Of a DNA stretch of 29,939 nt, positions 6,101 through 16,918 are shown piece by piece. The stretch covers positions 1 to 29,939 of IMG/VR virus record IMGVR_UViG_3300025009_000315, one strand, 5' to 3'. The notes beneath the pieces are model-generated. The model ran no database searches. It saw nothing but the letters and a program-made list of their open reading frames with translations, and was not told where the DNA came from. The position numbers and the translations under genes were made by a program. The stretch is from a virus. Each line of letters starts with the position of its first letter. The first letter of the stretch is position 1.

Positions 6101-6393
6101 GAATTATCACCACCTTCCGATTCTTTCCATGTATCATAAGCTTGTTGTTCCAAGACTTCTTGCTTTATATGATCACAGGTAGCGCAGTAGCCGGTTTCTT
6201 GCATAAAAGCAACCTCCACAGGATCTACCGGGGCTTTACCACAGCTACAGCGGTGTTCGTATAGAACCCACATCTTTGAGATATTATCAGAGTATCTTTT
6301 AAGGGAATCGGCAAAAGATTGTACCGTATCGGCAAGTTCGTGCTTTCCTTGGCTACGGTAAATATGTACGAGTTTGGCGGTAGTATTAGTCAT
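6097..6393 (-). CDS. Hypothetical Cys-motif protein (98 aa)
   Basis: I prefer ATG 6393, which has AGGAAAG upstream, over ATG 6414, which has no ribosome site and lies close to the -10 element. The product is helical at the N-terminus, has CSCG and CATC pairs about 20 residues apart (probable zinc site) and an acidic C-terminus. Its stop overlaps the lysozyme-like gene as ATGA. It is the first gene after the promoter at 6424-6452. Confidence 0.6.
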   Translation of the reverse strand: MTNTTAKLVHIYRSQGKHELADTVQSFADSLKRYSDNISKMWVLYEHRCSCGKAPVDPVEVAFMQETGYCATCDHIKQEVLEQQAYDTWKESEGGDNS

Positions 6394-6419
6394 CTTGGGC
6401 TTTCCTAATTTCATACTAA

Positions 6420-6457
6420 GGGTATTCTACACCCTAGTTACTTGTTTGTCAATACCC
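6420..6457 (-). promoter_or_regulatory. Promoter flanked by a 7-bp inverted repeat (possible operator)
   Basis: TTGACA (6452-6447), a 17-bp spacer and TAGAAT (6429-6424) form a near-consensus leftward promoter. A perfect inverted repeat, GGGTATT (6420-6426) and AATACCC (6451-6457), overlaps the two elements with half-site centres 31 bp apart. It lies in the 3' end of the small HTH gene, an obvious candidate to bind it. Confidence 0.65.
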
Positions 6458-6617
6458 CTAATAACCGTTGGTAGAACGCTTCCGTTGCAACCCTTTTACC
6501 CGATCTAAGCAGGGATATGTACGAGTGGTCACACCCTACAAGCCGGGCTATTTCGTATGCTGACATCTTGTTATCAAGTATGTCTGATTCAAATATTGTT
6601 TCTTTGCGGTATTTCAT
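6438..6617 (-). CDS. Small helix-turn-helix regulator (Cro/XRE-like, 59 aa)
   Basis: The 59-residue product reads MKYRKETIFESDILDN and then KMSAYEIARLVGCDHSYISL and LRSGKRVATEAFYQR. Residues 18-45 match the HTH pattern (SAxEIAxLVGxxxSYISxLxxGxR) of minimal Cro or phage-repressor-like proteins. Its start overlaps the nuclease stop as ATGA, so it is the last gene of the methyltransferase-nuclease operon. Its 3' end contains the next promoter, which invites autoregulation or local regulation. Confidence 0.7.
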   Translation of the reverse strand: MKYRKETIFESDILDNKMSAYEIARLVGCDHSYISLLRSGKRVATEAFYQRLLGVLTNK

Positions 6618-6985
6618 ATCTTTTTAAAACTATCTAGCTTATAAATACGCCGGGGTTTTTCTCCGTGAGTGTCGAAATATTCCCCTTCTTCTAACACAGA
6701 AAGCAGTTGATAAAAGATTTCGTCCGTTTCTTTATCAAAAATATATAAGTAACACTTGATACCTGTTTCCTTTTCAAACTGTAACCTGCGGGCAACTTGC
6801 CATCTAGGAAGTCCGTGACCGTCAAAGGGTGGTGATAAAAACCGGGCTTGGTGTTTACACTCAAACAAACACCACTCCCCATCTTTCTTTCCTATAGTAT
6901 CGGGTTGAAATACTTCCCACCCATCGTCTTTTAAGAGTTTTAAAAGCTTTTGTTCACCTTCTATCCCTTCTATTTGTATTCCCAT
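6614..6985 (-). CDS. PD-(D/E)XK nuclease-like protein (123 aa)
   Basis: I place the start at ATG 6985, which shares one base with the methyltransferase stop (TGATG) and has GAGGT upstream; an ATG at 7012 is less likely. The product contains EGEQKLLKLLKDDGWEVFQ, then PDTIG (Asp29), FECKHQ (Glu42, Lys44) and RWQVARR (Gln63), the order of a small PD-(D/E)XK fold. It could be a resolvase-like or restriction-like enzyme. Direct coupling to an adenine methyltransferase makes a restriction or self-protection pair worth considering. Confidence 0.72.
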   Translation of the reverse strand: MGIQIEGIEGEQKLLKLLKDDGWEVFQPDTIGKKDGEWCLFECKHQARFLSPPFDGHGLPRWQVARRLQFEKETGIKCYLYIFDKETDEIFYQLLSVLEEGEYFDTHGEKPRRIYKLDSFKKI

Positions 6986-7854
6986 CAGACCTCGTTCCCC
7001 CACGATGACCAACCTTCCCTAGTATTTCTAGCAAAAAGTTCCACCTTACTTCCTAAGGTTCTGTCTTCAATATATTGATACATAATATCCGGTTTTTTGG
7101 AGTGTTCCCGTTTGGCTTCCGTAAAGACTGTGGGGATATAATCACCTTCCTGCTTAATAACCTTGCTTAAGATACCTTTATACCCTACAAGTAAAAGTTC
7201 GGTTCTTCGGTGGAACCCGTTGGAACTCCAACCCCCCACCTTGTCCCACGTTATTGTTATGTGGTACTTAAACCCCCAAAATTCCAACAAACGCAAGGCT
7301 TCGGGAAGGGTACTTAACGTAGACCAAAGAAACAAAACACAGTCTTCCGCCGAGATGCTTTTTACGTCTAGTTCCATAAGCTGTTGTTCGGTCATGGTTG
7401 GGTACTTATCTTCTAGAGGACTTTCCCACTTTTCCAAAACAAACGAACCTATATCCCACGGAGGATCCGCATAAATAACGTTATATTTACCTTCTATTAG
7501 TGGCAACGCTTGCGGGGTTTCTTTTTGTGCGGGTAGGTATTTTGTAACGAGTTTGTTCCATGTGATATTTTTTCCTTCCGGGATATCGTTTATATTGGGG
7601 TATTTTTCGTGAAGTTGTACCGCCCTGTAAACATCCCGATGCCCTACCCCGATGTTCTTTGACAGGTCTGTCAGGGAACTTTCGTTTCCTTTAGCGTATT
7701 TTTTGAAATTTTCATCTTCCCGGATTCTTTGCCCAAGTTCCCAATAACCCTGAACCAGCGCCCACCTAGATGTAAAAACCGCTTCCGTAACTATTGCCTT
7801 GCAGTCTTCCACTAAAAGGTCGTACCACTCCTGAATTTTCGCTAAATCCCTCAT
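6985..7854 (-). CDS. MT-A70 family adenine methyltransferase with DUF1016-like N-terminus
   Basis: This 289-residue protein has two parts. Residues 1-110 (WALVQGYWELGQRIRE, SSLTDLSKNIGVGHRDVYRA) resemble the DUF1016/YhcG N-terminal DNA-associated domain. Residues 120-285 are an MT-A70 methyltransferase with the catalytic DPPW at 130-133, YPTMTEQQLMELD and FLWSTLSTLPEAL. MT-A70 enzymes of phages methylate adenine N6 in DNA, often for protection from host restriction. The start overlaps the preceding 39-codon frame as ATGA. Confidence 0.9.
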   Translation of the reverse strand: MRDLAKIQEWYDLLVEDCKAIVTEAVFTSRWALVQGYWELGQRIREDENFKKYAKGNESSLTDLSKNIGVGHRDVYRAVQLHEKYPNINDIPEGKNITWNKLVTKYLPAQKETPQALPLIEGKYNVIYADPPWDIGSFVLEKWESPLEDKYPTMTEQQLMELDVKSISAEDCVLFLWSTLSTLPEALRLLEFWGFKYHITITWDKVGGWSSNGFHRRTELLLVGYKGILSKVIKQEGDYIPTVFTEAKREHSKKPDIMYQYIEDRTLGSKVELFARNTREGWSSWGNEV

Positions 7855-7970
7855 CTTTTCCTCCCGACCCGGGTTTCAATCATATTCATCCCGAACACCC
7901 ACGCACCAAAAGCTATCCAATCTTCAAAAAGCTTTATTCTAATTGCCGTCCAAAGGCTTATATTTTTAAT
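7851..7970 (-). CDS. Possible 39-aa protein with ATT start
   Basis: A frame ending TGA at 7851 overlaps the methyltransferase start as ATGA and reads NISLWTAIRIKLFEDWIAFG then AWVFGMNMIETRVGRKR. It has no ATG, GTG or TTG start upstream of the sequence that looks coding. An ATT at 7970 has AAGGGA about 4 nt upstream and overlaps the previous gene by 13 nt. An internal ATG start would leave only a short tail. The hydrophobic core could be one membrane helix. The start is uncertain. Confidence 0.4.
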   Translation of the reverse strand: MKNISLWTAIRIKLFEDWIAFGAWVFGMNMIETRVGRKR

Positions 7971-8113
7971 ATTTCCCTTTCCACATACTCAAGGATCCAA
8001 TCAACGCGTTGGAACCCCTTTCTTGTTCGCCCATTTTTTTTCAAAGAAATACGTTCGTAATCTTTTAAGATTTTATAAAGTTTATGTAAACAAAGTGGGT
8101 CTATTTGGCTCAT
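7958..8113 (-). CDS. Small basic hypothetical protein (51 aa)
   Basis: The frame from ATG 8113 to TAA 7958 begins MSQIDPLCLHKLYKILKDYE and ends in RVDWILEYVEREILKI. It has GGAAG upstream and overlaps the preceding gene by 32 nt. Composition (Lys, Leu, Glu, aromatic) suggests a folded helical protein. It lies in the leftward operon ahead of the methyltransferase. Function unknown. Confidence 0.55.
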   Translation of the reverse strand: MSQIDPLCLHKLYKILKDYERISLKKNGRTRKGFQRVDWILEYVEREILKI

Positions 8114-8291
8114 ATACACTTCCGTCGAATATTTTTAATACGTCGTCAGTGTACACCTTGTCGTCCGTCTTGTCAACGCCCGATTTAAAATACCGTTCGG
8201 AATACTGCTTCATAAGGGAGCCTAATTGTTCCGGCGTACATCTTCCGATCATCTTTTGTATTTTCCTAAAATCTGACTGTTGCTCGGTCAT
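8082..8291 (-). CDS. Hypothetical protein (69 aa), first gene of the leftward operon
   Basis: ATG 8291 has AAAGGA at ideal spacing. The product (MTEQQSDFRKIQKMIGRCTP, ... LGSLMKQYSERYF, ... DDVLKIFDGS) is helical and charged. It is the first protein gene after the face-to-face promoter region and a leader of nearly 380 nt. It could be an early regulatory or anti-host protein, but nothing in the sequence identifies it. Confidence 0.6.
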   Translation of the reverse strand: MTEQQSDFRKIQKMIGRCTPEQLGSLMKQYSERYFKSGVDKTDDKVYTDDVLKIFDGSVYEPNRPTLFT

Positions 8292-8304
8292 ACGTCCTTT
8301 CTAC

Positions 8305-8502
8305 CTATTCGGTTACAGGTGGGTTAGTACCTCGTTTAAGATACCTAATTATTTACGGCGGTTTCCGTTTTTTCCCGGTACCGTATCAGTCAACCTATCA
8401 GTTCGTGTGTCTTTAACTCGCACGAAGGGACACGACTTGTTTGACGTGAGTGGCTGTGTCCTTTAGTTCTACTTTGTTGGGTCTTCGTCTATTCGGTTAC
8501 AG
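8305..8502. repeat. Two 14-bp direct repeats in the intergenic region
   Basis: CTATTCGGTTACAG occurs at 8305-8318 and again at 8489-8502, 184 bp apart and in the same orientation. The first copy is 14 nt from the first gene's start. They could be protein-binding sites, iterons or remnants of a duplication. The rest of the sequence between them is not repeated. Confidence 0.6.
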
Positions 8503-8620
8503 TTCGGTGTAGTGTGGTTACTTTTTTTGAGTGCCGACCACTTTCAACCTCCGCACTTACAAAACTAGCCCCCCAACCGAAGTCAGGGAGCTAGTTCTGT
8601 CCACCACGTTATCACTCAAG

Positions 8621-8649
8621 TTGACAAGGTGATAGTCGTTCGCTATAAT
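8621..8649 (+). promoter_or_regulatory. Perfect-consensus rightward promoter
   Basis: TTGACA (8621-8626), a 17-bp spacer and TATAAT (8644-8649) match the sigma70 consensus at all twelve positions. It is the only convincing plus-strand promoter in the window. No gene of note lies in front of it until an intrinsic terminator 260 nt away. Confidence 0.85.
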
Positions 8650-8675
8650 ATATATAGTTTTTTTCATCAAAGACT

Positions 8676-8704
8676 AATATACGCGCCGACGTTAAACGTG
8701 TCAA
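8676..8704 (-). promoter_or_regulatory. Leftward promoter facing the rightward one
   Basis: TTGACA (8704-8699), a 17-bp spacer and TATATT (8681-8676) form a strong leftward promoter. Its expected start (about 8669) lies 13 bp beyond the expected rightward start (about 8656), so the two polymerases would collide. It should drive the leader and the operon ending in the methyltransferase, nuclease and HTH genes. Confidence 0.7.
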
Positions 8705-8869
8705 GAAGAATCCGCTTTCGGGCGGATTTACTTGTTATTAAAGGAAAAATACAGCCCGCAGAAGAATCCGCAGGCCGGGATGCTATACAATTGAAAGTAG
8801 CCTAGCGAAGAAGTCGTTAGACGTGCTAGTGACTCTGTATAACTGTCCAAACTTATTATTTCAAATTTC

Positions 8870-8911
8870 GGGGGTAAATCAATATGCTAATACATGACTT
8901 ACCCCCTTTTT
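8870..8911 (+). terminator. Intrinsic terminator of the ncRNA
   Basis: GGGGGTAA (8870-8877) pairs perfectly with TTACCCCC (8899-8906) and is followed by five T residues (8907-8911). The 21-nt loop is longer than usual. The opposite strand has no T-run after the stem, so this serves rightward transcription. It ends 1 nt before the stop of the metallophosphoesterase gene. Confidence 0.8.
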
Positions 8912-8912
8912 A

Positions 8913-9743
8913 CTAAAAATCCAGTTTCACGGGAACATAGAAAGGTATCCACTCAGTCTTGATTCCCAAAAGCCCCGAAGCGTCCGTCCTCACTTCGCAG
9001 ATGAGCCCACCCATATCAGGTGATAAACCCAGGCGCGTGAGAAAAGGAGTTTGGCTTTGGAATGCCCCCATGGAAAACGCTTCAATATTCCTATAGTGTG
9101 GGATGTGACATTGAGTGTGCCAGTGACCGACAAACAGTGCGTGCGGCTTCACTTCTGGGGAAAATTGCTCACAGATTTTTTGCAACTTGTAGGACCTTGC
9201 GTATGCAACGCCCCCCGCAGAATGCATTAGAGCAATTTTTAATCCCGCCAAGTGAATAAAAGCAAGATAATCTCCGAGGTATTCCATGTCCTCGCGTTCT
9301 TCGCAGATGGCTTTGACTATGTTGTAGCCATCCGTTTTCCAGAAGCTTTCGTCATGGTTCCCAAGAATTACTTTGGTTTTGATGCCTTCAATCTTGGGAT
9401 AGTTTGCAACGACATACTCCCGTTGAGCATCTGCTCCGTGGAGGAATAATTCATACTCTTGGCCTTTGTAGACCTTGGAACCATCCACGAGGTCGCCGCA
9501 GTGCAGGACAAGTTCAATTCCACGTTTCTTACACAGCTTGTAGAAGCTGTGAAGGTGTGTGAGTTGCTGATATTTGGAACCGATTTGGGTGCAGGAAATA
9601 ACTGCGAATTGATAGGTATTTCCCTTCAGCTTGGTCAGGTCGAACTTAAAAGTTTTTCCCGACACCGCAGGAGGGACTTTCGATACGAAATATCCTCTTG
9701 TTTTTAACTCTTCAATTAGTTGGGCATTCGTTAACTTCTCCAT
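8913..9743 (-). CDS. Calcineurin-like metallophosphoesterase with altered motif I
   Basis: I use ATG 9743, which has GGAG 6 nt upstream, giving 276 residues. Motifs follow the phosphoesterase order: HCGDLVDG (Asp84), ILGNHDE (Asn129, His130, Asp131), LMHSAGG (His174) and GHWH (206-209). The first motif, normally D-x-H, reads SCTQIGSKYQQLTHL, so both metal ligands are replaced (Cys51, Gln53). The surrounding GSKYQQLTHL, FLHGADAQ and SYKLQK segments are typical of a phage phosphoesterase family. Fold assignment is firm; activity is in doubt. Confidence 0.88.
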   Translation of the reverse strand: MEKLTNAQLIEELKTRGYFVSKVPPAVSGKTFKFDLTKLKGNTYQFAVISCTQIGSKYQQLTHLHSFYKLCKKRGIELVLHCGDLVDGSKVYKGQEYELFLHGADAQREYVVANYPKIEGIKTKVILGNHDESFWKTDGYNIVKAICEEREDMEYLGDYLAFIHLAGLKIALMHSAGGVAYARSYKLQKICEQFSPEVKPHALFVGHWHTQCHIPHYRNIEAFSMGAFQSQTPFLTRLGLSPDMGGLICEVRTDASGLLGIKTEWIPFYVPVKLDF

Positions 9744-9753
9744 GACATCTCCG

Positions 9754-9939
9754 CTATAGTACTGTGTAGTGAGTCGCAACGAGTGTGTATTTCACACAGT
9801 TTAGGTATTCGTCTTGGTGCATATTTGCCAAGGCCCTATCCTGTGCAGACTGCAGACAGGTCGAGACACCGTAGAAGAAATAAATTTCTTCCCCTAACAT
9901 AACTTCGAGCGTAACTGCGAAAACCACAATATTACCCAC
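9754..9939 (-). CDS. Small hypothetical protein (61 aa, GTG start)
   Basis: A GTG at 9939 preceded by AAGGAGGAGAG opens a 61-codon frame (VGNIVVFAVTLEVMLGEEIY...). The ribosome site is the main support. The N-terminus is hydrophobic for about 15 residues; the remainder is polar (STCLQSAQDRALANMHQDEY). It lies 10 nt upstream of the phosphoesterase start. Not recognised. Confidence 0.55.
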   Translation of the reverse strand: MGNIVVFAVTLEVMLGEEIYFFYGVSTCLQSAQDRALANMHQDEYLNCVKYTLVATHYTVL

Positions 9940-16889: not shown

Positions 16890-16918
16890 ATTATATATTT
16901 TTAAACAAGCTTTGTCAA
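16890..16918 (-). promoter_or_regulatory. Perfect-consensus promoter of cassette B
   Basis: TTGACA (16918-16913), 17 bp and TATAAT (16895-16890) match consensus completely and overlap the stop codon of the 1334-residue protein gene. TCTTT begins 8 nt after the -10. The predicted leader is about 54 nt and consists almost wholly of two hairpins. Confidence 0.8.

Follow-up and report, generated by a model that had tools for sequence, protein, structure and literature searches.

Why does a phage whose genes run in one direction have a perfect consensus promoter pointing in the other? The question is raised by IMG/VR record IMGVR_UViG_3300025009_000315, a linear viral contig, of which we analyzed a stretch of 29,939 nt (hereafter the window). 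A first-pass annotation, made from the sequence alone, had read the promoter as the start of the only plus-strand unit among minus-strand genes, a structured RNA of about 255 nt that might regulate infection, sequester a protein, or act against host defense. Our tentative answer is that the promoter belongs, as the reverse member, to a face-to-face pair at the junction of the late and early genes, and that it would meter early transcription in cis.

The junction and its two promoters

Profile and family searches place every gene of the window that has a family match on the minus strand, in agreement with what had been said of all genes. The late operon ends with a metallophosphoesterase (MPE) gene, whose stop codon lies at 8913, and a noncoding gap of 620 bp (8292-8912) separates it from early-type genes (Table 1). 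Searches outside the group returned little. The first conserved early protein matched only two known close relatives, the junction region had no DNA relative among named phages and plasmids, and a 22-bp core pattern was absent from the bacterial genomes searched. The MPE profile had no match in bacterial genomes either, so the host was not found. The early leader also contains a 20-nt direct repeat (8305-8324 and 8489-8508, 90% identical, 184 bp apart).

Table 1. Positions of features at the late/early junction and in its surroundings (window coordinates unless a relative is named)
Feature	Position	Strand	Remarks
Major head protein	28.9-29.9 kb	minus	
Endolysin	10.5-11.3 kb	minus	
MPE, last late-operon gene	8913-9779	minus	PF00149, PF12850, phrog_7339
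Structured late-operon 3' trailer	8745-8912	minus	z -5.8; ends in terminator 8777-8752
Early promoter, TTGACA-17-TATATT	8704-8676	minus	11/12; faces the reverse promoter; expected start near 8669
Reverse promoter, TTGACA-17-TATAAT	8621-8649	plus	12/12; expected RNA start near 8656
Untranslated reverse transcript (predicted)	8656-8911	plus	From promoter and hairpins; no conserved ORF with a Shine-Dalgarno sequence
First terminator-like hairpin of reverse RNA	8702-8734	plus	Weak U tract; overlaps early-promoter -35
Second terminator-like hairpin of reverse RNA	8870-8911	plus	At MPE 3' end
Early-operon leader with two adjacent hairpins	8555-8668	minus	z -7.0; second hairpin (8595-8564) terminator-like
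69-aa protein, first conserved early ORF downstream	8082-8291	minus	85% identical in L004
Early-type genes past the gap			MT-A70 methyltransferase, endonuclease VII-like protein, exonuclease, NinG/Rap-like protein
Reverse-RNA hairpin overlapping early-promoter -35, relatives	L004 6054-6020; L016 7229-7199; L024 7565-7537		

The reverse promoter is as perfect as first described, and it is the sole plus-strand site scoring at least 10/12 in the 29.9-kb window, where the minus strand has ten such sites. It is not a lone unit: a near-perfect minus-strand promoter, overlooked earlier, faces it and is directed at the early genes. The -10 boxes of the two are 26 bp apart, and their summed score is 23/24. 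Among 40 Markov-shuffled copies of the window there was no 12/12 site and no face-to-face pair with a summed score of at least 21/24. These scores count matches to the sigma-70 consensus. RNA polymerase usually covers DNA from about -55 to +20 and, with a gap of 26 bp, the two initiation complexes would overlap. A second perfect 12/12 promoter of the window (16890-16918, minus strand) lies at the 3' end of a 1334-aa late gene and is kept in the relative L007.

Conservation of the pair among relatives

We fetched MPE relatives from viral contigs, and the case for the promoter pair consists of four lineages including the window, one of which (L016) is weak; L002 matches the window without a difference over 10.9 kb and hence adds no information. 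In all four lineages, opposite-strand promoters point at each other downstream of the MPE gene, behind a terminator-like hairpin. L004 is 93.8% identical to the window over the longest alignment, its MPE gene differs at 79 of 831 nt (23 of 110 four-fold sites changed), and only 62% identity remains in its promoter region (79/128 columns). It keeps both promoters, with a -10 gap of 24 bp and a span from -35 to -35 of 82 bp versus 84 bp in the window. L024 (51% MPE identity) has TTGACT-16-CATAAT opposite TTGACA-16-TATAAT, one side scoring 12/12, again with a gap of 24 bp. The reverse promoter thus scores 12/12, 11/12, and 12/12 in the window, L004, and L024, respectively. In L016 (63% MPE identity), two opposed TTGCAA-17-TATAAT sites of 10/12 each are 66 bp apart, a pair near chance level, since chance alone gives about 0.2 pairs with a summed score of 20 per 30 kb. 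With only 24 to 26 bp between the -10 boxes in every lineage but L016, polymerase footprints would overlap and the promoters would compete.

Face-to-face pairs are found well beyond this group. Our scan of viral contigs for near-consensus pairs gave a raw count of 106 stretches, and the loci that were fetched held 66 distinct pair sequences, in unrelated settings and over the whole range of gap lengths, so that the arrangement appears recurrent and not the property of one family. Two candidates were not counted as further cases: L037, where an integrase and a tRNA 3' end occupy the slot, and L046, whose pair sits elsewhere.

Some relatives differ around the junction in other ways. The MPE frame of L024 is split into an N-terminal part ending at 6645, an HNH endonuclease ORF (6771-7205), and a C-terminal part (7331-7489); the interruption (6645-7330) probably represents a self-splicing intron that encodes a homing endonuclease. 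The early leader of L004 carries, at 6197-6930, an extra HNH-endonuclease ORF, a small ORF and, after them, noncoding G+C-rich DNA without an Rfam match; none of this is present in the window.

The predicted reverse RNA and the strand that folds better

What would the reverse promoter produce? Judging from promoter and hairpins, the transcript is probably a mix of forms of about 80 and 255 nt. It may often stop at the first hairpin, as in the relatives, and read-through would then extend it to the second (GGGGGTAAATCA...TGACTTACCCCC-TTTTT), which adjoins the MPE stop codon. Much of the earlier description of a 255-nt unit is sound: the promoter, a terminator-like hairpin with a T tract, the position of this hairpin against the 3' end of the MPE gene, and the lack of a credible reading frame, as no ORF with a Shine-Dalgarno sequence is conserved on the plus strand between relatives. 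Its length is less secure, given the earlier hairpin, where transcription could already stop after about 80 nt. The RNA had also been said to fit no known family, and Rfam indeed gave no match at gathering thresholds; the best weak match, Spy392987 (23 bits against a cutoff of 47), covers the terminator hairpin only.

Inspection by eye revealed no sequence of the reverse RNA common to the four lineages, and both its sequence and its length vary between them. The reverse RNAs of L004, L016, and L024 have a terminator-like hairpin within about 55 to 105 nt, which overlaps the -35 box of the early promoter (Table 1). In L004 this hairpin persists although its stem sequence differs from that of the window. 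The early transcript likewise has a terminator-like hairpin within about 75 to 160 nt in the window, L016, and L024.

The stems and possible three-way junction previously assigned to the plus-strand RNA belong largely to the other strand. The margin of the plus strand over shuffled sequence is modest (z -1.9 for 8657-8912 and -2.6 for 8745-8912) and that of the minus strand far larger (z -5.0 and -5.8, respectively), so that the stems that had looked consistent are mostly the complement of minus-strand structures. The minus-strand consensus of the window and L004 has 56 pairs, with 49 unchanged, 6 changed on one side, 1 compensatory, and none broken, versus 2 changed pairs among the 38 of the plus-strand consensus; this is a two-sequence alignment, which is a thin basis, and consensus folding favors kept pairs. 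The wobble pattern is strand specific, since a G-U pair in the minus-strand RNA becomes an A-C mismatch in its plus-strand complement. A covariation test of the plus-strand stems had been proposed as a check; in these two sequences the plus strand keeps 2 changed pairs and the minus strand 7. The stems at 8745-8912 are best read as mainly the minus-strand 3' trailer of the late operon and its terminator. The hairpins of the early leader (8564-8636, minus strand) are both strong, the second with a UUCG loop, and might be an attenuator or antitermination site.

Possible interference between promoters and its rivals

We suggest, as a tentative explanation, that the two promoters act on each other. 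The minus promoter would start the early operon, and the plus promoter would yield an untranslated RNA, about 80 nt long if it ends at the first hairpin and about 255 nt long if it extends to the late-boundary hairpin. The promoters would compete for occupancy, and each elongating polymerase would sweep the opposing promoter. The reverse promoter would in this way meter early transcription in cis, with the RNA mainly a by-product and the terminators keeping reverse transcription out of the late genes. The conserved item is the opposed promoter pair, and this points to a cis effect on the early promoter and away from an RNA that sequesters a protein or counters host defense. A cis effect also fits promoters that are conserved without conservation of RNA sequence or length, and the RNA is probably more important for holding back the early promoter opposite it than as a folded machine. 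The recurrence of the pair downstream of the MPE gene in L004, L024, and L016 and the span kept in L004 despite regional drift count for this interpretation, and the weaker, wider, near-chance pair of L016 counts against it.

Known phage systems offer precedents. In phage 186, the convergent pR lowers pL 5.6-fold (PMC6593788). Lambda pO, likewise convergent, reduces transcription from pR and influences replication; the authors of that study favor polymerase interference over OOP RNA acting in trans (PMC3985674). On the other hand, another convergent pair of phage 186, pE on pR, showed no significant interference (PMC7708051). The likeness to pR/pO and OOP is a short untranslated RNA from a promoter converging on the early lytic transcript (PMC3985674), here with an intrinsic terminator and as judged from sequence features only. 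In lambda, however, pO is located far within the pR transcript, with OOP antisense to cII; in the window the promoters meet head-on where early transcription would start, and the RNA runs in the direction of the late-operon end, stopping before the MPE gene without overlapping a regulated coding mRNA. Its antisense overlap is limited to the noncoding late trailer and the opening bases of the early leader. The pR-pL switch of 186/P2 also opposes a promoter to an early lytic one (PMC6593788), and in the temperate relatives of the window the reverse side carries an integrase. Unlike pL of 186, which encodes proteins such as CI, the reverse side of the window encodes no protein, and the -10 boxes of its group are only 24 to 26 bp apart in three lineages.

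The main rival, in our view unlikely, is that the noncoding junction is a replication origin opened or primed by one or both of the short transcripts. Such a role has been proposed for the PE1-T transcript of lactococcal c2-type phages, where a variable noncoding early/late junction combines a strong early promoter and an untranslated RNA (PMC7150918), and the effect of lambda pO on replication points the same way (PMC3985674). L024 adds three exact DnaA boxes (TTATCCACA) with 20-bp spacing at 7916-7964, about 350 bp downstream and directly upstream of its early genes. However, the junctions of the window, L004, and L016 have no exact DnaA box and no visible iterons, and the annotated proteins of the window include no initiator. 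The early and late modules of c2-type phages diverge, whereas here all genes run in one direction with an extra promoter opposed to them; the junction is a candidate origin only. A relic of lysogeny, with a former integrase promoter left after integrase loss and a functionless RNA, is rather improbable. Its attraction is that L015/L005 (73%), L037 (52%), and L038 (47%) have exactly this slot occupied by an opposite-strand integrase, which makes the reverse direction the lysogeny side in temperate relatives and RNA-only in the window group, and that a 9/12 reverse site of L037 overlaps its 12/12 early promoter. As the window is a fragment of a genome, its lack of an integrase is valid for the 30 kb at hand only. 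Yet the reverse promoters of the window, L004, and L024 outscore the candidate integrase promoters (8 to 10/12), and the one in L004 has survived where its surroundings drifted. A tRNA 3' end lies directly upstream of the early genes in L005 (6970-7000) and L037 (8181-8280) and is probably the attachment (attP) core. In L037 it sits between the early promoter and the early genes, so that integration would sever one from the other.

Could the RNA itself be the active part? We give little credence to an antisense role, in which read-through RNA would pair with the late-mRNA 3' trailer and tune the stability of that mRNA, as OOP does on cII. By position the complementarity is complete over about 170 nt, and the second plus-strand hairpin sits just outside the MPE gene; but L004, L016, and L024 have a terminator-like hairpin ahead of the trailer, so most reverse RNA would not overlap it, and the minus-strand trailer conserves its structure on its own. 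Equally doubtful is a trans regulator of host or phage targets, about 60 to 255 nt long, made from a near-consensus promoter and coupled in dose to early transcription. The first-pass proposal of a 255-nt RNA acting in trans through its own plus-strand fold seems very improbable to us. A promoter, a terminator, no ORF, and no Rfam match agree with it, but the plus-strand fold is weak, the minus strand has the better stems and keeps them, and the lineages share neither sequence nor length of the RNA; neither a fold nor compensatory changes specific to the plus strand emerged, in a thin test on two close sequences.

The locus is thus a conserved two-promoter module of a known kind, not a new class of structured RNA. 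If promoter interference is its function, an uncultivated phage group has two near-consensus promoters, each excluding the other, set head to head where its early operon begins, and an RNA-only reverse unit stands where temperate relatives keep their integrase. Promoter competition and transcriptional interference could then be tested at minimal spacing in a simple natural setting, and the locus would exemplify a lysogeny slot that has come to act purely as a governor of transcription.
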